A stretch of DNA of 34,125 bases, taken from assembly GCA_903863885.1 (NCBI GenBank), contig CAIPEB010000557.1:1-34125 (forward strand), given 5' to 3'. The DNA is from an uncultured Planctomycetaceae bacterium. GTDB lineage: Bacteria > Planctomycetota > Planctomycetia > Pirellulales > Pirellulaceae. Positions 13,748 to 25,732 of this stretch are shown piece by piece (position 1 is the first letter of the stretch; the number at the start of each line of letters is the position of its first letter). The notes under the pieces were generated by a model that worked only from the letters and a program-made list of their open reading frames with translations, was not told the DNA's origin and made no database searches. The position numbers were made by a program, and so were the translations under genes.

Positions 13748-15403
13748 TTACAGCGGCTTCAATAGTCTCCGCACCCGCACGACGAATCCCAGCAGGCAGC
13801 AGACGCTCACGACGCCGGCGATCCACCAGCTTGCCGGAAGCAACTCATACTGCGCAAAGCCGGGCATCCCGATAACGCTCAACGCCGCTCCCAGCGGATT
13901 GATCATCAATGCGGCCTCGACCACTGGCCGGCCAAACGGCGCATCGCGGCCCAGCCAGATCAACAAAGGCCCGAGGAAGATCGCCATCAGGACGACGTAC
14001 GTGACGACCGTTGCCGCCGCGGTCCGCGACATCCAGCACCCCACGGCTGAACTCACCGAAAGCGTGTAGACGACCGTCAGCAGCAGACAGATCTGAACCA
14101 CATAGATCTGCAGCCACATCGACGGCTCAATCCAAATCATGATCAGATAGCCCGGTACCGTGGCCATCAGCACGAGCAGCATCGTCCACAGCACACTTGC
14201 CAGTTTGCCGGTCACGATGCGCCAGCCCGCGATCGACGTGGTCTGCAGGAGACTCCAGCCGCCGCTTTCGATCTCGGAACTGACCAGCGGAGCCGCCAGG
14301 CTCGGCGTGATCAGCACGACGAGCACGACCTGCAGCAGCACCATCAGTCCGCCCATCGTCTCGACTCCCCAGTCCACGGTCCCGGTCGTGGCGGCGAGCG
14401 TCATCAGCAGCGAGATGACGGCGCAGGCGGCTATCAGACGCAGCAGCCAATGGAAGCGGCCGAACCGCCGCGTGCGGAATTCCTTCACCATGACGGGGTT
14501 CATGTAAAAGGGAATGCCCGGCTTTCTCCGCTGAGGATCAACCAGGAACACCATGCGCCGAGCCGTGCGAACGGCCAGCCCGCGGTCATCCGTGACTTTC
14601 CCCTGAGCGCGCGAGCGGTCGAACATACGATGGTTCAGTTGGGCCAGAGTTCCCGCGGCCAAAAGGGCCGAGACCAGAATCGCGCCGAACGCAAACCCCT
14701 CCGGTCCCTTGCGTTTCTCCAGCAACCCCTGAGCGCCGACCCCCGCATCTCCCACGATTTCCATTACCGTCGGAACGGGCGAAAGACCCCGCAGCAGCGA
14801 CGCGCCGCGCGCCAGATATCCATCCTTGCCCTGCATCAGGTAGTTCGGGCCGAGCGTCGCGAAGACGAGCGCGAATACGGCCGCATAGGTGACTCGCACC
14901 GACGAATCCGGCGTCTGGGCGTGGCAGCTGACGTACAATCCGACCAGCACGCACTCGAGCATCACCAGCCCCAGCACCAGGTAGAGCGATCCGATGTCGC
15001 GCAGCAAATCAACGCCGCCCATCGCATAGCAGGCCGTGGCTGCGGGCAGACTGGTCGCAAGCAGCAGTACCGCAAAGCCGACCACCCCGAGCACCTTTCC
15101 CAGATAGATCTCGCCCGGTTTCAGCGGCGAATTGAGCAGCAGCAGGAGCGTCCCTTGAATTCGCTCGCGCACCACCGAAACGGCCGGAAACGCAGGCACC
15201 AGCAGAAGGACTCCGCCCAGAAGCCCGTAGGCAAACACTCGGAACACGAGGCGGGACTGGGCGCCGGAAAGATCGACCAGTGCACTCGTGGGCCAGCGAG
15301 CCAGCACCAGCAAGGCGAACAGGGCCGCGGAGACGCAGATCGCCGCTACCGCACGCGGTGTGCGCAGGATACCCGAAAGCTCTCGTTGCAGTATGACAGT
15401 CAT
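13748..15403 (-). CDS. ABC-2 type permease, two halves fused (GldF-like)
   Basis: A 551-residue integral membrane protein made of two similar halves. Each begins with a basic amphipathic stretch (LQRELSGILRTPRAV at 4-18; NPVMVKEFRTRRFGR near 308-322) and continues with about six hydrophobic helices, the layout of ABC-2 export permeases. A single polypeptide could thus supply the whole membrane channel. Its ATG overlaps the ATPase stop by 4 bp (ATGA at 15400-15403), showing translational coupling. The partner ATPase and the upstream GldG-like protein point to an exporter or envelope-remodelling transporter like the Gld ABC complex. The substrate is unknown. Confidence 0.88.
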   Translation of the reverse strand: MTVILQRELSGILRTPRAVAAICVSAALFALLVLARWPTSALVDLSGAQSRLVFRVFAYGLLGGVLLLVPAFPAVSVVRERIQGTLLLLLNSPLKPGEIYLGKVLGVVGFAVLLLATSLPAATACYAMGGVDLLRDIGSLYLVLGLVMLECVLVGLYVSCHAQTPDSSVRVTYAAVFALVFATLGPNYLMQGKDGYLARGASLLRGLSPVPTVMEIVGDAGVGAQGLLEKRKGPEGFAFGAILVSALLAAGTLAQLNHRMFDRSRAQGKVTDDRGLAVRTARRMVFLVDPQRRKPGIPFYMNPVMVKEFRTRRFGRFHWLLRLIAACAVISLLMTLAATTGTVDWGVETMGGLMVLLQVVLVVLITPSLAAPLVSSEIESGGWSLLQTTSIAGWRIVTGKLASVLWTMLLVLMATVPGYLIMIWIEPSMWLQIYVVQICLLLTVVYTLSVSSAVGCWMSRTAAATVVTYVVLMAIFLGPLLIWLGRDAPFGRPVVEAALMINPLGAALSVIGMPGFAQYELLPASWWIAGVVSVCCLLGFVVRVRRLLKPL

Positions 15404-16365
15404 GCGTTCGCTCGCGTCACGGACAGGAACGCGTCCTCCAGGTCTTTCGTCACCTCGCGAAACTGGGCCACCAGGATCTTCGCGTCAATCAGCCGAGCCA
15501 GCATCGCCGCGACTCCCGCGTCCGGCTGATGCGTTTCAAACTGCACCAGGCCCTCACGGGCCCGCTCCACCACGGAAGGGCGTTCCGCCTCTTCGAGCGT
15601 TTTGCGAACCACGCCCGCAGCGTCGGCCACTCGGGCCGGGTCGGCAAGCTGGACCTCGAAGGTTCTCTGCTGCCTCAAGTCGCGCATGATCTCGTCGAGC
15701 GTGCCGAATGCCCGCAGCTTGCCCTGCGTGATGATGGCGATGACGTTACAGATGCGGGCCAGTTCGGGCAGGATGTGGCTGGTCACGATCAGTGCCTTTC
15801 CCATTCCGGCCAAACGGAGCAGCAACTCGCGCATTTCGATCCGCGCCTGGGGATCGAGCCCGTTGGCCGGTTCGTCCAGAATCAGCACCTGCGGATCATG
15901 AAGCAGCGTGCGGGCCACGCCGATTCGCTGCTTCATGCCGTGGCTCAGCGTTTCAACAAACCGGTCCTGCATGTATGTCGATCCGGTCGTGTCGAGCACC
16001 TCCGCGATCCGCCGATTCCGTGCGCTGCGGGGAATGCCGAAAGCCGCACCGAAGAAGTCGAGATACTCGCGGACCCGCATGTTGGAATACGAGCCGAACG
16101 TGTCGGGCATATAGCCGACCAACCGCTTGATCTGCCGCGAATTGCGGACACAGTCCGCGCCGGCGATCCGGGCCCAGCCGCTGGTGGGCCGCATTACTCC
16201 GACGAGAATATTGATCGCAGTCGTCTTGCCCGCGCCGTTGGGACCGATGAAGCCGAGGATCTGGCCGCGGCCGACCGAAATGGTCAGGCCGTCAAGCGCG
16301 GTCAGTTCGCCGAAGCATTTGGTCAGCCCGTTCGTTTGGACGACTGGTTCTGCCACGTCCGTCAT
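15400..16365 (-). CDS. ABC transporter ATP-binding protein (GldA/NatA-like)
   Basis: A 321-residue cytoplasmic ATPase that powers the adjacent permease. It has Walker A GPNGAGKTT (41-49), signature TLSHGMKQR (139-147), Walker B LILDEP (161-166) and the switch His197. The signature is SHGMKQR rather than LSGGQ, as is usual in the CcmA/NatA/GldA exporters. About 90 extra C-terminal residues follow the ATPase core. The frame is open to 16428, but I choose the ATG at 16365 because it overlaps the preceding gene's TGA in an ATGA junction and the family similarity begins just after it. Confidence 0.93.
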   Translation of the reverse strand: MTDVAEPVVQTNGLTKCFGELTALDGLTISVGRGQILGFIGPNGAGKTTAINILVGVMRPTSGWARIAGADCVRNSRQIKRLVGYMPDTFGSYSNMRVREYLDFFGAAFGIPRSARNRRIAEVLDTTGSTYMQDRFVETLSHGMKQRIGVARTLLHDPQVLILDEPANGLDPQARIEMRELLLRLAGMGKALIVTSHILPELARICNVIAIITQGKLRAFGTLDEIMRDLRQQRTFEVQLADPARVADAAGVVRKTLEEAERPSVVERAREGLVQFETHQPDAGVAAMLARLIDAKILVAQFREVTKDLEDAFLSVTRANA

Positions 16366-18866
16366 GGTCGCGATTCCTCTTGACTTGTTCGTCCATCGAG
16401 CGTCAGACGAACATATTCGATTTGCCACGTGGTCAGACGCGAATCGTCGGCGGCCCAGCCGCTCGTCTCCGCCTCAGCTTCCACAGCCGATTTTCCCACT
16501 GTAATGATGACCTGGACTCGTCCGTCGCCATCTTCCGTCAGGTGCTTGTCCTTCAGCTCGAAATCGTAGACGCCGCTCGGACTCGAAACTGATCTCAGCA
16601 GCTCAGGCCGTTTATCGACGACTGCCGATACGCTCAGCAGTCGCGACGGCGCATTGATGCGAAGTGTCAACTTCCCGCTTTTCAGCTTGCAGGGAAGCAC
16701 TTCGTCCGGAACTTTAAAAAAGAGAGTCGCTTCGGAACCCCGAGTGAGCTTGCGCAGCCACTGTCCGGTTCGCGCATTGAACACCGACGACACGCCCTTG
16801 CCATCCGACGGCATCGACGGCTTCAGAAATGTCGCCGGAATGCGGAAGTCGGTTTCAGGGGGAGTCTTTGCCAGTTCCAGAGGCAGCACCGCGAGCGAAT
16901 CTCCGTCCAACCGGAAGTCCTTGGGGAACTCGACGCCCGCGTCAAACGTCCGGTACCAGCCCGCAACCGCAACTCGGGTCAGGTAGGCTTCGGGCGTCCC
17001 CGCCTGAAGGACACCCCGCATCGCTTCCTGTTGCGCCCGCTGGCGGTCCGAAAGCAGAGAGCCCGCGATGAACTGACCGGCCGGCAGAACATCTTCGGGA
17101 CGTGACACGAAGGTGCCGTCGCTTTTCATTTGGACTGCCAAAGACGGAACGCCCGGGCCCGAGATCACCGGATCGTTCAACGCAGCAACGCTGGCGAATC
17201 GACCTTCGAGACCGTTCGGTCCGAATCGCGCAACAACCGCGGTCGGCGCCGGTTGAGATCGACAGTCTTCCATCCGCACCAACCCGACGCTCGCGGCCTG
17301 GGTGGATACATTCTGCGTTTCCATGGTGTCGTTGCCCGCCCACACCTGACGCCGCACTTCCAGCCCCGAGTGCGCATCAGGAGTGACGAGCGAACATCGT
17401 GAACCGCTCCATAGCACCTCGCGGTTCTGCCGCTCGTAGACTGCAGCCAGTCCGTCGGAGAAGACCTCGCCCGTCTCCGAAGAGATGCTCGCCAACTGCG
17501 AATAGGCAATCGTCGGCATGATGCTGGAAGTGCTGGCCGCACCTACCGCCACCATCACGCCCGCCGCGATCACAGTGGCAATCAGCACCACGCCAACAAG
17601 CAGGCCCGCTCGGTTGCGACGATAAAGCCAGACGCCGGCGACGAGCAGCGACAGGCAATAGGTCGACAAAACGCTCATGGCCATCCATCGCGCCGGCACG
17701 CGATAACCGATCCGCTGCTGCAGCATCGGCTGAAATGCCTTGAGATCAACGGGCTTCCTGGCTGGCTGCAGCAACCGATACGAGATCGAGCGCCAAGCCT
17801 GTGTCGCCTCGCGTCCTTCGCCCGGCCGGAAGCCGCGCGGGCCCAATGCGCTCAGCAGGACCTCTCCGTTGCCGAAAGGCACCCATATCGCGGCGGGCCA
17901 CCCCTGAACCCGGCAAGGCACATCGTGCAACGTCGTCTCGACACGCACCATCACGACGGGATCGTCGTACTCGAGTTTGTCCTGGGAAACCACCCGGCCC
18001 GATTCGTCCACGGAATCCAGAGTGAACCGATCCAGTTCCACCCGGTCGACAATCGCGAGCGAAGCGGCGTTGCCGAGCAGCGCGTGGACCGTCGATGGAC
18101 TGACTCGATCCAGCGTAATCCAAAGCCGGCCGCCTTTGCGCACCCATGCGCGGAGCGCCGCCAGTCCGGCCGAATCGCACGCGATGCGGTCGCTGGTCAA
18201 AAGGAACTGCCCGATGCCATCCAGTGCGCTGGGCCAGGGCGGAATGAAGTCATTGCCAAAATCGTTCGCGCTCTCGGGCAGTTCCATGATTCTGCGAGCG
18301 GACATCAACGTCTCCCAGGCGTCGATATCCGGTTCGGGAGCCGTCGGATCGTTGCTGTAGTCCGGGCGCCTCGTGCAGGTACCGGATTTCACCGCGTCCT
18401 CGGCCAGGCCGAGCAGGTGCCGCGCAACCAGCGGTTCGCCCGTCTTGTGCTGCAGTACTTCGCGTCCCGAGGTCGGATCAAGCGTGATGGCCCGCAGGTC
18501 CTTCCGCCGGTGGTCTTCGTTCGACTCCAGGGGCACCTGAATCGGCAGCCAGGTCACCCGTTTCGCATGGGCGGGAACCCAGATACGCCTCGCGAACTGC
18601 CGTGAAGGATCCTCGGCAAAGTAGACCGAGACGAGTGATTCGCCGTCCTGGCTGCCCCGGTTCGTTGCGTTCATGCCGAGAACCGACCAACTGCCCGGTT
18701 TGTGCATCCGGATAATGGCCGAGTGGATGCTTGTCCGCACGTCAATCTGGTCGCTGTTTGCCGAATTAGTCCCGCTGGCGCTGGGCGCATCGCCACCGGA
18801 GACCTCCGACGACCCGATCCCCGCCAGAGCCAACACGAGCGAAATGCCCAAGAAATGCCGATTCAC
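16362..18866 (-). CDS. GldG-like membrane protein of an ABC export operon
   Basis: An 834-residue protein, first gene of the three-gene ABC operon. It has a signal peptide (1-24). A periplasmic domain includes a GldG-like segment around 218-252 (FLLTSDRIAC, then RAWVRKGGRLWITLD), where such proteins test an opened lumen or channel. Two membrane helices lie at about 393-415 and 420-444, followed by a second large soluble domain of beta-rich character. I place the start at the GTG at 18866, which has GAGGAA about 8 bases upstream and begins MNRHFLGISLVLALAG. The in-frame ATG at 19034 would add 56 residues with no signal-like character. The first-gene position and ATGA junction with the ATPase tie its job to the transporter. 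No catalytic motif is evident. Confidence 0.8.
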   Translation of the reverse strand: MNRHFLGISLVLALAGIGSSEVSGGDAPSASGTNSANSDQIDVRTSIHSAIIRMHKPGSWSVLGMNATNRGSQDGESLVSVYFAEDPSRQFARRIWVPAHAKRVTWLPIQVPLESNEDHRRKDLRAITLDPTSGREVLQHKTGEPLVARHLLGLAEDAVKSGTCTRRPDYSNDPTAPEPDIDAWETLMSARRIMELPESANDFGNDFIPPWPSALDGIGQFLLTSDRIACDSAGLAALRAWVRKGGRLWITLDRVSPSTVHALLGNAASLAIVDRVELDRFTLDSVDESGRVVSQDKLEYDDPVVMVRVETTLHDVPCRVQGWPAAIWVPFGNGEVLLSALGPRGFRPGEGREATQAWRSISYRLLQPARKPVDLKAFQPMLQQRIGYRVPARWMAMSVLSTYCLSLLVAGVWLYRRNRAGLLVGVVLIATVIAAGVMVAVGAASTSSIMPTIAYSQLASISSETGEVFSDGLAAVYERQNREVLWSGSRCSLVTPDAHSGLEVRRQVWAGNDTMETQNVSTQAASVGLVRMEDCRSQPAPTAVVARFGPNGLEGRFASVAALNDPVISGPGVPSLAVQMKSDGTFVSRPEDVLPAGQFIAGSLLSDRQRAQQEAMRGVLQAGTPEAYLTRVAVAGWYRTFDAGVEFPKDFRLDGDSLAVLPLELAKTPPETDFRIPATFLKPSMPSDGKGVSSVFNARTGQWLRKLTRGSEATLFFKVPDEVLPCKLKSGKLTLRINAPSRLLSVSAVVDKRPELLRSVSSPSGVYDFELKDKHLTEDGDGRVQVIITVGKSAVEAEAETSGWAADDSRLTTWQIEYVRLTLDGRTSQEESRP

Positions 18867-19651
18867 AGTTGAATTCCTCAGTTCTCTCGTACAGGCCAAG
18901 AGGTTACCCTGCCCGCGAACGATTCGCAATCGTGCCCGCACGACAATGCCTGCGCATGCCACGACCGGCGAAAGTTCATGCGGGAATTCACTCGACAAAC
19001 GCGCTATCTGCAGAAAAGCGGAACGTCTGGACAAGAGCGAGAAGAGGGTCGCCGGACGCGAGGCTCCAGCGACCCTTTCGTGTTCCGGGACCGGAAATCA
19101 GGCGGGGCCCGATGCCTGCCGGGCAGCCTTGCGACAACGCGCGGCAGGTCTTGTGAACGGAAATGCTCGTCTCTTGCTTCCCGCGAAGGTCCCTCGCAGA
19201 CCTGTCGCGGATGTGTGTTTTCAGGACGAGTAAGCGCAGTACGCGGCAGGCTATCAAACGGCGCGAATCGGTACAGCCGCCGTGCGAGTTTTTCGCACCT
19301 CACGCGGAGGCCTCAACTCCCGGCCAAGAGCGGCGGCCGCTTCTTCGCATGGACGTCGCCTGCCCAAAGCCGGAGGGTACCGGCGACGCCGCGTCGACGC
19401 TTGCGGCCATGTCTTCGATTTGCAACGATAGTCCGAGACGTGCGGAAATCCCGCCTGCCAAGCCGAATGAAAAAAACAACGCCGGTAGTCGGTGGTCGTT
19501 CCGGGTGGCGCGGGAGTGTTGTCCCATCACTTGCACGAATTGTGAAATCTTCTGATGGGCGGTTCACGCGTCTGTTTTGCGAATCGATGCCAGATCGGAA
19601 AGCGACCGACTCCAGACTCCGGCCTCCGGATTACCTCGTACGAGACAAGAC
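18867..19651. other. Long divergent intergenic region with many inverted repeats
   Basis: 785 bp with no convincing gene; the open frames across it are Arg/Ser-rich and unlike any protein. It separates the leftward GldG-like gene from the rightward ABC importer operon. Perfect or near-perfect stems are at 18919-18924/18928-18933, 19045-19052/19069-19076, 19140-19151/19198-19209 (one G-U pair), 19282-19287/19293-19298, 19354-19360/19382-19388 and 19523-19529/19553-19559. It could hold promoters, an RNA leader and perhaps a small RNA. I match it to no known RNA family. Confidence 0.6.
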
Positions 19652-21235
19652 ATGGCAATACGCATCGGGGCCGTTCGAGTTCGCCGCGGCGTGACCAATA
19701 ACCTCCACGCACTGACATTGTCGGCCGCCGCATCCCTGGCAATTCTCGGGTTCCTTTTGTATCGCGGTGTTCAGCAGCCCGGCGACGGAAATGCTCCGCG
19801 GCTCTTCATGTACTGCGCCGCAGGTCTCCGTTATCCGGTCGAGGAAATCGTCCAGCAGTACCGGCAGCGTTACGGCGTACAGGTCGAAATCCAATACGGC
19901 GGCTCCAACACGCTGCTTAACCAACTCGAAGTCGCGCGAGTCGGCGACCTGTATCTCTGCGCCGATGAAACCTACATTCGTCAGGCACGAAGCAAGGGAC
20001 TCGTAAGAGAGGTCCTTCCGATCGCGTTCCAGACTCCGGTCATCGTTGTCAAGAAGGGCAACCCGAAGCGGATCGCCATGCTCGATGACCTGCTGCGCGA
20101 GGACGTGACCGTGGCGCTCGGAAATCCTGATGGCGCCGCGATCGGCAAAATCACTCATGATCTGCTGACGGCCGCCGGACTTTGGGAAAAGATCTCGGCT
20201 CATGTGACGAAACGCGGCGTCTTCAAACCGACAGTGAACGAAATAGCAAACGACGTGAAGTTGGGCAGCGTGGATGCAGGCATCATCTGGGATGCGACCG
20301 CTGCCCAATACCCGGAACTGGAATCGATCAAGGCCGATGCACTCGACCCGGGGGCTTCGCTCGTCGAAGTCGGCGTCTTGTCGAGCGCACGAAACCCGTC
20401 GGCCGCCATCCGGTTCGCCCGATACGTTGCCGCAAGCAACGCGGGACTCGAGACGTTCGCGAAGCATTCCCTGCGAGTGACCAATGGAGATTTATGGGAC
20501 GAAAATCCCGAAATCACCTTTTTCGCCGGATCGGTGAACCGCCGCGCTCTCGAGCCGATCATCTCGGAGTTCGAGCGCCGCGAGGGTGTCCGCGTCAACA
20601 CGGTGTACAACGGATGCGGAATTCTCACGGCGCAGATGCGCACAATCCAGCAGAACCAGGACAAGACATTCCCCGACGCCTACATGGCCTGCGACGTGTA
20701 CTACCTCGACAACGTCCGCGAACTGTTCCAGGAAGCCGTCAATGTATCGGACACGGACATCGTGATCGCCGTCCAAAAGGGCAATCCCAAGGGCATCCGC
20801 GAGTTGAAGGACCTGACGCGCGCGGGCATGCGAGTTGCGGTCGGCCAGCCCGAACAATGCACGATCGGCGCCTTGACCAAGCGACTGCTGGAGCATGAGG
20901 GACTGTACGACACGCTGATTAGCGGCAATGTCGTGACTCAGACCGCGACGTCGGCCATGCTCGTCCCGGCAGTCACGACGAATTCGGCCGACGCGGCACT
21001 GGCCTACGCGACGGACACGCTGGGCGAACCGGGCCGCATCGAAGTGATCCGCCTGGACTCGGAACTTGCCAAGGCCATCCAGCCATTCAGCATTGCGAGA
21101 TCCAGCCAGCACAAGCAACTCGCCCGCCGGTTGTTCGAGCAGGTCGCTCGTTCGCGGGAGATCTTCGAGAAGAGCGGCTTCCACTGGCGACTGGATGCCA
21201 GCGGCGAAAGAGAAGTTCCCGCGGAGAAGCCATGA
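19652..21235 (+). CDS. Tandem two-domain ModA-like substrate-binding protein
   Basis: A 527-residue binding protein of a molybdate-type ABC importer. Residues about 17-36 are one hydrophobic segment (LHALTLSAAASLAILGFLL) serving as signal or membrane anchor. Two consecutive periplasmic-binding modules follow: the first opens FMYCAAGLRYPVEEIV (about 50-65) with YGGSNTLLNQL, the second FFAGSVNRRALEP (near 290-302) with YNGCGILTAQM. Each repeats the family pattern of an initial strand, a Ser/Gly loop and a later VVKKGNPK or AVQKGNPK segment. Normal ModA proteins have one such module of about 250 residues. The ATG at 19652 is chosen because the 25 residues upstream in the frame are not signal-like; its ribosome site is weak. 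The permease ATG overlaps its TGA. Confidence 0.87.
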   Translation: MAIRIGAVRVRRGVTNNLHALTLSAAASLAILGFLLYRGVQQPGDGNAPRLFMYCAAGLRYPVEEIVQQYRQRYGVQVEIQYGGSNTLLNQLEVARVGDLYLCADETYIRQARSKGLVREVLPIAFQTPVIVVKKGNPKRIAMLDDLLREDVTVALGNPDGAAIGKITHDLLTAAGLWEKISAHVTKRGVFKPTVNEIANDVKLGSVDAGIIWDATAAQYPELESIKADALDPGASLVEVGVLSSARNPSAAIRFARYVAASNAGLETFAKHSLRVTNGDLWDENPEITFFAGSVNRRALEPIISEFERREGVRVNTVYNGCGILTAQMRTIQQNQDKTFPDAYMACDVYYLDNVRELFQEAVNVSDTDIVIAVQKGNPKGIRELKDLTRAGMRVAVGQPEQCTIGALTKRLLEHEGLYDTLISGNVVTQTATSAMLVPAVTTNSADAALAYATDTLGEPGRIEVIRLDSELAKAIQPFSIARSSQHKQLARRLFEQVARSREIFEKSGFHWRLDASGEREVPAEKP

Positions 21236-22059
21236 GCCAGATTGCACCGCGGGAGGCGTTTCCGGAACATCGCGCCCGCACCGATGTTCCGTTTTTTCTG
21301 TTGATGGGCCTGATCGGCGCGTTCTACGTCGGGTGCATATTGCTGATGCTGCTGGCCGATTTGGCCTACACGTCACCCGGCGAGTTTCTCGGCGCATTCG
21401 CAAAGCCGGAGATCCGCTATTCGTTGCGACTGACCATGGTCTCGTGCACGATGTCGGCGATCCTGTCGCTCGTTTTTGCGATTCCGATCGGCTACCTGAT
21501 GTCGCGTTATCGATTCCGCGGCCGGAACCTTGTCGATGCAATACTCGATATTCCGATTGTGCTGCCGCCGCTGGTGATCGGATTGAGCCTGCTGATCCTA
21601 TTTCAGTATGTTCCCGCGAGATTCACGGCCTTTCGAGAGGCGATTGTCTATCAGGTGCCGGCCGTGGTAATTGCGCAGTTCATGGTGGCCTGTGCGTTCG
21701 CCGTCCGCACGATGCGGGCGACTTTCGACCAGATCGACAGCCGTCGCGAACAGGTCGCTCTGACGCTGGGCTGCAGCCGCTCGCAGGCCTTCGGGCTGGT
21801 CGTGCTGCCGGAAGCCTGGCGGGGGATCGTAACGTCAGGCACGCTCGCCTGGGCCCGGGCGTTGGGTGAATTCGGGCCGTTGCTGATCTTCGCCGGAGCC
21901 ACTCGCCGCAAGACCGAAGTCCTCTCGACAACCGTTTTCCTGGAATTGAGCATCGGCAACCTCGAAGCGGCCGTCGCCGTCTCGTTGATAATGGTCGCCT
22001 CGGCCGTCATTGTGCTGATCGTTGCCCGCACGTGGGGCACCCGAGCCTTGGACCCGTAA
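21232..22059 (+). CDS. ModB/CysU-type ABC importer permease
   Basis: A 275-residue inner-membrane protein with about six hydrophobic helices (near 20-43, 66-90, 103-125, 142-160, 198-221 and 245-266). The cytoplasmic EAA loop that docks on the ATPase lies at about 173-195 (TLGCSRSQAFGLVVLPEA), followed by ARALGEFGPLL (209-219), which is characteristic of molybdate, tungstate and sulfate permeases. Its start overlaps the binding-protein stop as ATGA (21232-21235), so the two are translationally coupled. One permease gene implies a homodimer, although the binding protein has two modules. Confidence 0.92.
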   Translation: MSQIAPREAFPEHRARTDVPFFLLMGLIGAFYVGCILLMLLADLAYTSPGEFLGAFAKPEIRYSLRLTMVSCTMSAILSLVFAIPIGYLMSRYRFRGRNLVDAILDIPIVLPPLVIGLSLLILFQYVPARFTAFREAIVYQVPAVVIAQFMVACAFAVRTMRATFDQIDSRREQVALTLGCSRSQAFGLVVLPEAWRGIVTSGTLAWARALGEFGPLLIFAGATRRKTEVLSTTVFLELSIGNLEAAVAVSLIMVASAVIVLIVARTWGTRALDP

Positions 22060-22075
22060 CCACTCAGGATCACCT

Positions 22076-22789
22076 GTGATTCGCGTATCGGAACTGTCGC
22101 TGCGATCCGGAAACTTCTACCTCGAGCGAGTCTCGTTCGAAGTGGCGACGGGCCAGTACGGCGTCCTGATGGGCAGGACCGGGAGCGGCAAGACAACGCT
22201 GCTCGAATCGATCGCAGGACTCAAGCCGGTCGCCGCCGGACGCATCGAACTGGGCGGCCGCGACGTGACGCGATCCAAGCCCGCCGAAAGAAACCTCGGC
22301 TATGTCCCGCAGGACGGGGCGCTCTTCACGACGATGTCCGTGAGCGACCACCTGGCCTTCGCGCTGGAAATCCGGCGAATCAGCCGGGCGGAAATCGAAC
22401 GACGCGTGCTCGAACTGGCGGAATGGCTGGAAATCGAGCACTTGCTCGATCGCTCCATTCGGGGTCTCAGCGGCGGCGAAAAGCAACGGGTCGCCATCGG
22501 ACGGGCGATTTCGTTCCGGCCCGGCACGCTGCTGCTGGATGAGCCGCTCAGCGCTCTGGACGACGTCACCCGAGCCCACATGTACGTCGTGCTCGAACGG
22601 GTGCGGAAACTGACCGGTGCGACGATCCTGCACGTCACGCACAACGCATCCGAAGCCGCGAGTCTGGCCGACCGGCTGTTTCGCATCGAAGACGGACAAG
22701 TCGTCGAACACCCGCTTCCCGATTTGGACCGCGTCCACTCAAATACGGACTCGCACGCCGGCGGAACGCCCGGCAGCAAGCTGCACTGA
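22076..22789 (+). CDS. ModC-like ABC importer ATP-binding protein
   Basis: A 237-residue ATPase that energises the preceding permease. It has Walker A GRTGSGKTT (33-41), Q-loop VPQDGALF, signature LSGGEKQR (131-138), Walker B LLLDEP (152-157) and the switch histidine in HVTHNASEA. It starts at the GTG at 22076 with AGGA about 8 bases upstream, 16 bp after the permease stop; the in-frame ATG at 22022 would overlap the permease gene deeply. Classic ModC proteins are about 350 residues because of a C-terminal molbindin/TOBE domain. This one ends soon after the ATPase core, so any oxyanion sensing must lie elsewhere. Confidence 0.92.
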   Translation: MIRVSELSLRSGNFYLERVSFEVATGQYGVLMGRTGSGKTTLLESIAGLKPVAAGRIELGGRDVTRSKPAERNLGYVPQDGALFTTMSVSDHLAFALEIRRISRAEIERRVLELAEWLEIEHLLDRSIRGLSGGEKQRVAIGRAISFRPGTLLLDEPLSALDDVTRAHMYVVLERVRKLTGATILHVTHNASEAASLADRLFRIEDGQVVEHPLPDLDRVHSNTDSHAGGTPGSKLH

Positions 22790-22926
22790 ATGAGTCGCAC
22801 GGAACCAGCTGCACTGTGCAATCTGTGCGATGAACGGTGCAAGTCATCGGGAAATGGGACGGCCTGGGCGCCGCAGGACGCAGGAATTTCGCATCAACTC
22901 TTTTTTTCTCCGCGGAGCGTTTGTCA

Positions 22927-23361
22927 ATGAAAGTGGCGACGATCAAGACCAAGCGTGGCGATATCCGGCTTCAGCTGTTTGACGACAAAGCACCGAAGAC
23001 CGTGGCCAACTTCGAGAAACTGGTCAACAAAGGCTTTTACAACGGCCTGAAGTTTCACCGCGTAATCGCCGACTTCATGATCCAGACCGGCTGCCCGCAA
23101 GGGACCGGCCGGGGCGGCCCCGGTTACACGTTCGCGGACGAGTTTCACGCCGATCTCAAGCACGACAAGGCGGGCATTCTGTCGATGGCCAACGCCGGCC
23201 CGAACACAAACGGCTCGCAGTTCTTCATCACGCACCGCGAGACGGCCTGGCTTGACGGCAAGCACTCGGTCTTCGGCCAGGTAATCGACGGCCAGGACGT
23301 CGTCGACGCGATCTGCCAGGGCGACGTCATGGAAAAAGTGACGATCACGGAAGAAGCCTGA
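22927..23361 (+). CDS. Cyclophilin-type peptidyl-prolyl isomerase
   Basis: A 144-residue single-domain cyclophilin that catalyses cis-trans isomerisation of X-Pro bonds. The active-site signature [19 protein letters not shown] (43-61) contains catalytic Arg45, and GSQFFIT (96-102) and [10 protein letters not shown] (108-117) complete the pocket. There is no signal peptide, so it is cytoplasmic. The ATG at 22927 has GGAG 11 bases upstream; an in-frame start at 22837 would add 30 residues foreign to the family. It lies 137 bp after the ABC importer operon and is probably separately transcribed. Confidence 0.95.
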
Positions 23362-23530
23362 AAAAGCAGCGGCGCTTAAACTCGAAATTGTCCGGACCGC
23401 CTGCGAGGTATATCTTGTTGGGTGGTGCGGTTCTTCATGCGCGTGCACGACACGATGCCGTCGCGGCCCGGTAGCGATATCATCCCAGTGGCGCGAATGC
23501 GCCGCCTCGAACCGATTGCGATCGAAGCCT

Positions 23531-24967
23531 ATGCCCAAAATGCAGGTCCGACGCGTTCTGAAACCGATGGTCTTCACGGCACTGTCCGGCATGGCGCTGG
23601 CCGCCTTGCTGGCCTGCGATACGCCCGTGTATCGCTATGCCATGTACCGCTGGGAGCCTGCGCCCTACGAGCTGTATTTTTTCCACGACCAACCGGCGGG
23701 AAGCGAGGACACGGCCGTGGCTCAAGCGGTTCGGGAATTGGCGGGCGGCGATAAACAACCGGCCAACCTCCAGTTCTTCGACGTCAATCTGGCGGAAGAC
23801 AAGGAAATGCTGAAGATCTCTCCCGCCGTAAAGCAGGCGTTCCTCGCAAAATCCGATCGCACGCTGCCGGCCTATCTGGCAGTGACCTCGTACGGAATGG
23901 AACTGTTCTTTGGGAAACTGGACGAAGCCGCGGCGCGAGCGCTCATCGACTCGCCGGTGCGGCGTGAACTCGCGTCGCAGCTGGCACAGGGAAAAGTCGG
24001 CGTCTTCCTGTATATCCCCTGCAGCAAGCCCGAGGCGAACACCCAGGCCGAGACGATTCTGAAAACGCTCATCGGCGAAATGAACGCAGGGAAACTCGAT
24101 CTGCCGGCCATTCCGGTGGCACCGGCAGCCGAAGGCGGCAGCGCGGGCCAGTCAAAGATCACGCACGAGTTGGGAATGCTCGAGGTCAAGCGTGATGATG
24201 CCCGCGAGCAATGGCTGTTGAAAATGCTCCTCGGCGTTGAAGACGATCTCAAGACAGAAGATGTGCCCATCGTTTTCCTCTGCTACGGACGAGGCCGAGC
24301 GCTGCTGCCGTATCTCGGTGCGGGAATCACGCGGGAAAATCTCGTCTATGAGATCGAATTCATCTGCGGGGCCTGCTCGTGCACGGTCAAAGAACAGAAT
24401 CCGGGCATCGATCTGCTGGTCCGCCAGAACTGGGAGGATGCCGCGAAGCTGCTCGCCGAGAAATTCGGCTCTGAAGAAGGCAATCCCTACGGCCCCGGTT
24501 CATTCTATCCCGAACTGGTCATTCCCAGCGGTGCCGCTTCCTCGGAAATGACGGCATCGACACCGGGCACGAGCACGGACGACGTGGTGAAGCCGGCCGC
24601 GCAGCCCGCCGCGACTGAAACGGAACGGGCGACACCGGCCACCGACCCGCAGCAGGCGGCCGCAGAAGCCAAACCGCAGGCGGCAGCCGCGCCGCCGGCC
24701 GGCAAGACCGAACCATCAGCTCCGACTGAAGACAGCCCAGCCAAAGAAGAGAATTCGCCGGGCGCGAATCAGACGCCCGAAGGCAATCCGGGCAAGACTC
24801 CGTCCGATTCCAAGCGTGCCGCGCGAATGACGTCCCGTGCCGAACACAGCACGCAGGTCGAACCGGCAAGCGAATGGTACTCCAGCGCGTACATTGTCGG
24901 AGGGGGAATTGCCGTTGGACTGGGAGTGCTGTTTCTGATTACCGTCTGGGTATTGCGTCCCCACTGA
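23531..24967 (+). CDS. Unrecognised lipoprotein with C-terminal membrane helix
   Basis: A 478-residue protein I cannot assign to a family. The N-terminus is a lipoprotein signal ending in a lipobox, ALAALLAC, with Cys29 as the lipidated residue. Residues 30-330 are a soluble domain with a possible thioredoxin-like flavour (LQFFDVNLAEDKEML; VGVFLYIPCSKPEA). A cysteine cluster CGACSC sits near 281-286. A Pro/Ala/Glu-rich low-complexity linker then spans about 335-440, and a final hydrophobic helix (YIVGGGIAVGLGVLFLITVW) ends in a short basic tail. Lipid at one end and a helix at the other suggest that it spans from one membrane face to another, which is an inference. The ATG at 23531 is preferred over the in-frame TTG at 23516. 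A LolD-type ATPase gene starts 114 bp downstream. Confidence 0.75.
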   Translation: MPKMQVRRVLKPMVFTALSGMALAALLACDTPVYRYAMYRWEPAPYELYFFHDQPAGSEDTAVAQAVRELAGGDKQPANLQFFDVNLAEDKEMLKISPAVKQAFLAKSDRTLPAYLAVTSYGMELFFGKLDEAAARALIDSPVRRELASQLAQGKVGVFLYIPCSKPEANTQAETILKTLIGEMNAGKLDLPAIPVAPAAEGGSAGQSKITHELGMLEVKRDDAREQWLLKMLLGVEDDLKTEDVPIVFLCYGRGRALLPYLGAGITRENLVYEIEFICGACSCTVKEQNPGIDLLVRQNWEDAAKLLAEKFGSEEGNPYGPGSFYPELVIPSGAASSEMTASTPGTSTDDVVKPAAQPAATETERATPATDPQQAAAEAKPQAAAAPPAGKTEPSAPTEDSPAKEENSPGANQTPEGNPGKTPSDSKRAARMTSRAEHSTQVEPASEWYSSAYIVGGGIAVGLGVLFLITVWVLRPH

Positions 24968-25081: not shown

Positions 25082-25732
25082 ATGATTCAACTGCAGCAGG
25101 TCAGCAAGGCTTACACCACGTCGCGAGGAACCGTTCGAGCGCTGGACGGCATCTCGCTTGATGTGGCCAGCGGCGAGTTCCTCGCGGTCCGCGGAGCGAG
25201 CGGCAGCGGCAAGTCAACTTTGCTCGCCGTCGTCGGCGGCCTCGCGCAGCCGACCGCCGGCCGAGTCACCGTCGGCGGATGCGAACTCACGCAGATGTCG
25301 CCGAGCCAGCGTTCCCAGTTCCGCGCAGAGCACATCGGGTTCGTGTTTCAGATGTTTCACCTGCTCCCTTACCTCAACGTCGTCGACAACGTGCTGCTTG
25401 CCGCACGATCGATGACGCCGGAGCACAAGGCATACGCATTAGAACTGCTCGATCGGTTTGGCCTGACCGAGCGGCGGTGGCACAGACCCGCACAACTCAG
25501 CGCGGGCGAACGGCAGCGGGTCGCCATGGCCCGGGCGATGCTGAACCGCCCCGCCCTGCTCCTGGCTGACGAACCCACCGGAAATCTGGATGATCGCAAC
25601 GCGGGGGCGGTGCTTGATCTGTTGGACCAATATCACACGGACGGAGGCACGGTCGTGCTTGTGACGCATCATGCCGATGCGGCGGCCCGCGCCCAGCGAA
25701 CCGTCACGCTCGAAGCGGGACGGTTCGCTTAA
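25082..25732 (+). CDS. LolD/MacB-type ABC ATP-binding protein
   Basis: A 216-residue ATPase with Walker [10 protein letters not shown] (38-46), signature LSAGERQRV (139-147), Walker B LLLADEP (159-165) and the TGNLD extension (166-170) typical of the LolD/MacB/FtsE group. That group works with FtsX-like permeases in lipoprotein release, macrolide export or cell-division signalling. No permease gene lies beside it: the gene before is the unrecognised lipoprotein, and the gene after is on the opposite strand. The ribosome site before the ATG is weak. The exact role is therefore open. Confidence 0.88.

Follow-up and report, generated by a model that had tools for sequence, protein, structure and literature searches.

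The locus described here raises the question of what two ModA-like binding modules, fused in one membrane-anchored chain and coupled to a single permease gene, deliver to that permease: the same oxyanion from both, or two ligands of different character. It lies in a stretch of 34,125 nucleotides from an uncultured Planctomycetaceae bacterium (contig CAIPEB010000557.1), referred to below as the window. The reading that we develop is that the genes specify a ModABC-like importer for molybdenum or tungsten, in which module 1 would be the oxyanion catcher and module 2 a second, thiophilic site feeding the same permease; we judge the chances of this being correct to be about even.

Organization of the Operon

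The transporter genes and the parts of the tandem protein are located as follows.

19652 to 21235, + strand: tandem substrate-binding protein (SBP), 527 residues, ATG at 19652, stop codon at 21233 to 21235
19700 to 19771, + strand: membrane anchor helix, residues 17-40 (DSSP of the AlphaFold2 model; no lipobox found)
19796 to 20491, + strand: module 1, residues 49-280, ModA-like (NCBIfam modA, 74.0 bits; cut-off 62.5)
20465 to 20515, + strand: inter-module linker, residues 272-288, with a GDxW motif conserved in 37 aligned sequences
20504 to 21196, + strand: module 2, residues 285-515, Cys-pocket module (NCBIfam modA, 53.2 bits, below the cut-off of 62.5)
21232 to 22059, + strand: ModB/NifC-like permease, 275 residues (TIGR01581, 187.8 bits, cut-off 210.3; modB, 154.9 bits, cut-off 182.6)
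22076 to 22789, + strand: ModC/WtpC-like ATPase, about 237 residues, without the C-terminal part of ModC

The Pfam family SBP_bac_11 matches both halves of the tandem SBP (156.3 and 120.2 bits), and the ATG of the permease at 21232 overlaps the stop codon of the SBP, and this single permease gene, to which the preliminary description had already linked the SBP, lies directly downstream. An alternative upstream start of the SBP is possible at an in-frame TTG at 19577. The start of the ATPase was taken as a GTG by choice, the list of open reading frames opening the same frame at TTG 22022; the protein covers positions 1-211 of the 347 in the WtpC profile and 5-211 of the 353 in modC (NCBIfam). 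Among 37 full-length tandem sequences, a hydrophobic stretch (19 residues with a mean hydropathy of at least 1.4) precedes module 1 in 35, and its absence from the other two (L003 and L039) perhaps reflects where their start was set; no match to a simple lipobox pattern was obtained in any of the 37. In the linker, Asp280 and Trp282 are invariant in these sequences and Gly279 is present in 36 of them.

Downstream of the operon, a cyclophilin-type peptidyl-prolyl isomerase is encoded at 22834 to 23361, and a protein without a Pfam match, with a CGACSC motif in the window copy, at 23516 to 24967; the latter recurs near tandem operons, and CGACSC or CSACSC is present in three of nine copies, the window's included, some copies being cut by the ends of their loci. 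A MacB-type ATPase (25082 to 25732) recurs there as well, and these two are frequently accompanied by an FtsX permease and a PQQ-propeller protein. Upstream, the other strand carries an ABC-2-type exporter pair and an 890-residue open reading frame without a Pfam match (13748 to 16428 and 16362 to 19034).

Predicted Structure of the Two Modules

An AlphaFold2 model of the whole tandem protein, built on the 37 sequences, has a mean pLDDT of 91.4 and shows two complete modules preceded by the helix of residues 17-40; a model of module 2 by itself has a mean pLDDT of 95.3. Each module has a type II, two-lobed SBP fold in the predicted structures and aligns with E. coli ModA (1wod), module 1 with a Z score of 28.4 and an rmsd of 1.9 over 223 residues and module 2 with a Z score of 26.3 and an rmsd of 2.4 over 218 residues. 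The models and these alignments rule out a module without the SBP fold. Pfam matches, AlphaFold2 and conservation agree in placing two complete modules behind one membrane anchor, as first described, and the lack of a ligand pocket in one predicted module, which would have told against that description, is not seen at the level of the fold.

Distribution and Conservation

Sixty genomes, among them that of the window, were searched at the protein level, and 26 contain the full tandem; G046 was scored as lacking it, having only a 67-residue match that spans the boundary between the modules and lies at the end of a contig. Eleven further named loci, all from Planctomycetota, Verrucomicrobiota or Kiritimatiellales, came from a pattern search of GTDB contigs, a method limited to close relatives. 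In the alignment of 37 full-length sequences, the other 36 are 31-60% identical to the window protein, and the reading frame, both modules and the linker are kept far beyond chance; this conservation rules out chance or an assembly artefact as the origin of the fusion.

A profile of module 2 was searched against 392 Planctomycetota genomes and gave 51 matches of at least 230 bits, in 49 genomes, the next score being 134 bits. Forty-eight of the 51 are in frames of at least 490 residues and the other three are near contig starts or ends, one of these (L147) retaining part of module 1 and being cut by the contig edge; no complete stand-alone module 2 gene was seen among the 51. The survey of the fusion that the preliminary description had called for therefore finds it to be widespread, in 49 of 392 Planctomycetota genomes and also in Verrucomicrobiota and Kiritimatiellales, and the two-site binding protein is both old and widespread in Planctomycetota and their relatives. 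No title concerning a fused or Cys-pocket ModA was found among the matches listed from the open-access literature, which is weak evidence of absence.

The permease lies directly downstream in 34 of the 37 tandem loci. In the remaining three (L009, L018/L092 and L021/L093), loss of the permease can be rejected, since the genomes carry a 61-76% identical permease elsewhere. Spread on plasmids was also rejected: 17 plasmid records match, none over more than 80% of the query, and the best 10 of the 17 match module 1 only. So was selenocysteine, the in-frame TGA codons of some homologues being at the C-terminal end in the frames read and, by their look, ordinary stops.

The Binding Pockets

In the complex of E. 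coli ModA with perrhenate, the ligand is contacted by Ser12, Ser39, Pro124, Ala125, Val152 and Tyr170 (PMC8895017). The corresponding residues of module 1 are Gly58 (Ser12), Ser85 (Ser39), Ile164 (Ala125), Val195 (Val152) and Trp213 (Tyr170). Among the 37 aligned sequences, module 1 keeps Ser39 in 36 and Val152 in all, and departs from E. coli ModA elsewhere: Gly replaces Ser12 in 30, Ala125 has become Ile or Val in 34, and Trp stands at the Tyr170 position in 29; the position of Ala58 is Ala, Gly or Ser throughout. Module 1 does not reach the WtpA cut-off, scoring 15.1 bits against 242.75. Since its pocket departs from that of E. coli ModA, its ligand could be another anion, a point taken up below with the substrate.

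In module 2, Cys322 corresponds to Ser39, Cys347 to Ala58, Cys403 to Val123 and Tyr452 to Tyr170. Cys322, Cys347, Asp348, Tyr452 and Gln477 are present in all 37 aligned copies, in which Gly406 is likewise invariant. With L147 added, Cys occupies both the Ser39 and the Ala58 positions in 38 of 38, and the pair recurs in 29 of 29 further genomes (28 checked by script and L110 by eye from its sequence), these being from 30 loci of the profile search, one of which is the window itself. The third position is looser: 26 of the 38 have Cys and the other 12 have Ser or Thr (26 Cys, 7 Ser and 4 Thr in the 37 aligned). Nor does Cys at position 123 set module 2 apart, since 12 of 21 other M1-like proteins share it. 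Cys is found at neither the Ser39 nor the Ala58 position in 16 single ModA-type proteins and the 37 module 1 sequences; all 16 of the former have Ala at position 58. The ligand loops thus do differ, as was noted at the outset, the GGSNT of module 1 (Ser85) and the NGCGI of module 2 (Cys322) both lying at the position of Ser39 in ModA.

The remainder of the oxyanion pocket is also altered in module 2. The position of Ser12 is Val, Met, Leu or Ile and that of Val152 is Ser, Gly or Ala in all 38 copies, and the equivalent of Tyr170 is the one ModA ligand residue kept, again in 38 of 38. The alignment to ModA ligand residues that the preliminary description proposed is therefore divided in its outcome, with part of the site retained in module 1 and the Tyr170 equivalent alone in module 2. 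A second alignment bears on the same place: Glu57 of FbpA, described as an iron ligand (PMC2632678), aligns with Cys347 and hence with Ala58 of ModA, the alignment being reliable only around the Glu57 motif. Because the cysteines align with pocket positions in both ModA and FbpA, it follows from the alignment that they would face the ligand, and module 2 may bind a thiophilic species. The suggestion that the two modules bind different ligands is favored at the level of sequence by Cys at two positions and by the loss of the Ser12 and Val152 equivalents.

An alternative explanation is that a single oxyanion, molybdate or tungstate, is the ligand of the two modules alike, and that duplication does no more than raise its local concentration or widen the range of affinities. 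The two modules share a fold, the Tyr170 equivalent is retained in every module 2, and the two domains of GlnPQ are described as both binding glutamine, with different affinities and independently of one another (PMC8025302). Set against these points are the replacements at the Ser12, Ser39 and Val152 positions in all 38 copies, the oddness of a fixed Cys pair as a site for a hard oxyanion, and the separation of module 2 as one distinct, long-stemmed clade; we consider it improbable that the two sites share a ligand in this way.

Phylogeny of the Modules and Apparent Loss of Module 2

Eighty-one modules were placed in a maximum-likelihood tree (quick search, with SH-aLRT support only), which groups module 2 as one clade with a support of 100 and a long stem. 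Single-module proteins at three loci (L027, L029 and L030) fall within the module 1 clade, and because L029 and L030 adjoin different tandem module 1 sequences, with supports of 89 and 92, the tree gives moderate support to the view that module 2 was lost secondarily in two or more lines. The permeases beside L027 and L029 are 60% and 57% identical to that of the window; L030, which is the same gene as L081, is a single module 1-type SBP without an adjoining permease. Module 1 by itself can thus probably serve the channel. The preliminary description had offered cooperation of the modules at one homodimeric channel as an alternative to different ligands; since the single module 1-type proteins of L027 and L029 adjoin the same kind of permease, such cooperation is apparently dispensable.

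Another reading is that module 2 delivers no ligand and is instead a regulatory or sensing domain, in which the cysteines form a redox- or metal-sensitive switch that governs how module 1 docks or how fast transport proceeds. Such a role is compatible with the pair of invariant cysteines, given that the protein is extracytoplasmic, with a short linker bearing an invariant Asp and Trp, and with the absence of module 2 from three members of the module 1 clade. However, the whole fold of module 2 is kept at high confidence, and the invariance of Gly406, Tyr452 and Gln477 exceeds the needs of a disulfide switch; in addition, no constant signalling gene accompanies the tandem in 41 clustered loci, many of which are short and whose clusters are not all annotated. 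A switch is, on this evidence, an unlikely function for module 2, and a second binding site is preferred.

A Second Lineage with Two Binding Proteins

The Planctomycetota search also revealed neighboring SBP genes in pairs, each pair with one related permease alongside (L078, L128-L134 and L138), a locus in which the paired SBP genes are about 2.8 kb apart (L146), and three loci (L135-L137) with a separately arisen SBP fusion. In the last of these the companion module, which has His where the window's family has Cys, is placed first, whereas the Cys module is second in the window's family. His occupies the Ala58 position of the companion in 13 of 13, and the companions form their own clade (SH-aLRT 99, 12 rows), other modules in the same region of the tree having Gly or Ala at that position. 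Because the companion modules of two clades carry Cys or His where others have a small residue, the comparison argues that position 58 matters for ligand binding, beyond a disulfide alone.

The independence of the Cys and His changes is left undecided by the 81-module tree. The broadest interpretation would be that in module 2 an oxyanion site of ModA type has been turned by nature into a thiolate metal site, giving one importer for two chemically unlike nutrients, an oxyanion entering by way of module 1 and a soft metal or thio-species by way of module 2, and that the same position became His, apparently independently, in the second two-SBP lineage; this we put forward as speculative and rather less than probable. 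When 20 flanking genes of other loci were compared with Pfam, one suggestive match emerged, an EB_dh-type domain beside a split pair: the ethylbenzene-dehydrogenase-type protein at L134:6087-7559 is encoded directly behind the operon of the pair, a possible link to a molybdoenzyme.

The Substrate of the Importer

The genome containing the window is 96% complete. SBP_bac_11 matches it in five places, two of which are the tandem modules; the others are a sulfate SBP whose gene neighbors that of a CysT-like permease, one resembling a 2-aminoethylphosphonate SBP (its best NCBIfam profile) and a PotD-like protein, the last two calls both being under their cut-offs. The sole PBP_like_2 protein is PstS. 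No other candidate for ModA, WtpA or TupA was found in this genome among the SBP_bac_11 and PBP_like_2 matches. MoaA is encoded, and the Pfam Molybdopterin family, which also includes a subunit of complex I, matches in four places, one of them marginally.

Across the 392 Planctomycetota genomes, classic ModA was found in 2 of the 49 with the tandem and in 136 of the 343 others (Fisher p 9e-8), a comparison that, like those below, ignores kinship, the genomes of one phylum not being independent. Classic ModA was defined by a match to the modA profile with E at or below 1e-30, chosen so that module 1 itself would not count. At a looser value of 1e-22 the avoidance is weaker, with 10 of 49 against 167 of 343 (p 2e-4); two of these ten (G337 and G408) have the match on contigs other than that of the tandem, and in six the match may be module 1 itself. 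Among the 60 nearest relatives the numbers are 2 of 26 with the tandem and 12 of 34 without (p 0.015); restricted to the family of the window they are only 1 of 21 and 5 of 16 (p 0.066). MoaA is present in 47 of the 49 tandem genomes and 258 of the 343 others (p 4e-4). Twenty of the 60 relatives have MoaA and neither the tandem nor classic ModA, and therefore other molybdenum importers must exist; the 20 include four with a single module 1-type protein and also G046, with its short tandem-like match.

The recurring neighbors of the tandem operon, namely ThiF/MoeB-family, PQQ-propeller and FtsX/ATPase genes and one unknown gene, were considered as a clue to the ligand and set aside, as they do not fix it. 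In favor of the molybdenum or tungsten reading, 13 of the 41 loci examined, many of which are short, have a ThiF/MoeB-family gene nearby, although four of the 13 (L037, L038, L040 and L041) are near relatives; six such genes were typed, of which two reach a MoeB cut-off and the other four fall under all cut-offs shown. MoeB/ThiF proteins serve other sulfur pathways too.

The system could instead import another anion or a metal (for example vanadate, selenite, phosphonate or iron), the avoidance of ModA being a matter of lineage history. The altered pocket of module 1 and a permease that falls under the ModB cut-off would fit this, and the co-occurrence counts are phylogenetically dependent; distinct SBPs for sulfate and phosphate and of the phosphonate and polyamine types are nevertheless present in the genome, and it encodes MoaA with no other candidate importer of molybdenum or tungsten found in it. 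We regard a different substrate as somewhat unlikely. The fold, the SBP content of the genome, MoaA and the avoidance of ModA, taken together, make molybdate or tungstate the best reading of the genomic data.

Proposed Mode of Action

The mechanism that would accommodate these observations has one chain, tethered in the inner membrane by its N-terminal helix, presenting two different modules to a channel that is presumably formed from two copies of the one permease. Module 1 would catch the oxyanion, dock and feed the channel. Module 2, with Cys322, Cys347, in most sequences Cys403, and Tyr452, would most likely take a second, thiophilic ligand rather than bare molybdate, such as a soft metal ion, a species that bears sulfur or one resembling arsenite, and would deliver it to the same permease.

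All Planctomycetes covered by one survey were found to use molybdenum (PMC6147048). Many of the genomes searched here carry no classic ModA, and the tandem SBP is a candidate for a missing molybdenum importer. With two unlike pockets on one chain before a single permease, the system allows a test of whether two kinds of ligand can enter through one ABC importer, and the Cys module would, if its ligand is confirmed, add to the ModA fold a binding chemistry that is new to it.

Comparison with Known Systems

The system resembles ModABC (E. coli ModA; TIGR01256, TIGR02141 and TIGR02142) in the fold of both modules, in the order SBP, permease, ATPase, in having one permease gene, and in the retention of the Ser39 and Val152 equivalents in module 1, but differs in having two modules per chain, a membrane helix, the Cys pocket of module 2 and an ATPase that lacks the C-terminal part of ModC. 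Against the modA cut-off of 62.5 bits, the whole SBP scores 122 and module 1 is also above it, while module 2 alone is under. Because the permease misses the ModB cut-off (it is also under that of TIGR01581) and the ATPase that of ModC (161.9 against 285.05 bits), the system is classed as ModABC-like and not as ModABC.

FbpA has a fold related to that of module 2 (1d9y: Z score 20.4, rmsd 2.6, 221 residues) and, as discussed above, Glu57 at the place of Cys347. It differs in that module 2 has Cys for this carboxylate, and the module 2 profile matches ModA proteins far better by sequence. The FbpA iron site (His9, Glu57, Tyr195 and Tyr196) is not reproduced, there being no aligned Tyr pair and an Asn in the column of His9, in an alignment that is dependable only near Glu57.

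The HisAsp two-SBP systems are similar to the tandem in having two ModA-type SBPs, one related permease where seen and a companion altered at the Ala58 position. They are distinguished by His in place of Cys, by genes that are mostly separate and by their separate clade.

GlnPQ, in which two tandem substrate-binding domains (SBDs) are described as differing in ligand and affinity and acting independently, with glutamine bound by both (PMC8025302), shares with the present system two different SBDs in tandem, one translocator and a short linker. Its ligands are amino acids and its SBDs are joined to the permease, whereas the window has a separate protein with a membrane helix and a permease encoded by its own gene. 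The relative placement of the modules also differs, a Foldseek superposition of GlnPQ (6h30) over both modules giving an rmsd of 21.2 and a TM score of 0.28. With these differences, GlnPQ is the nearest working analogue of the tandem protein.
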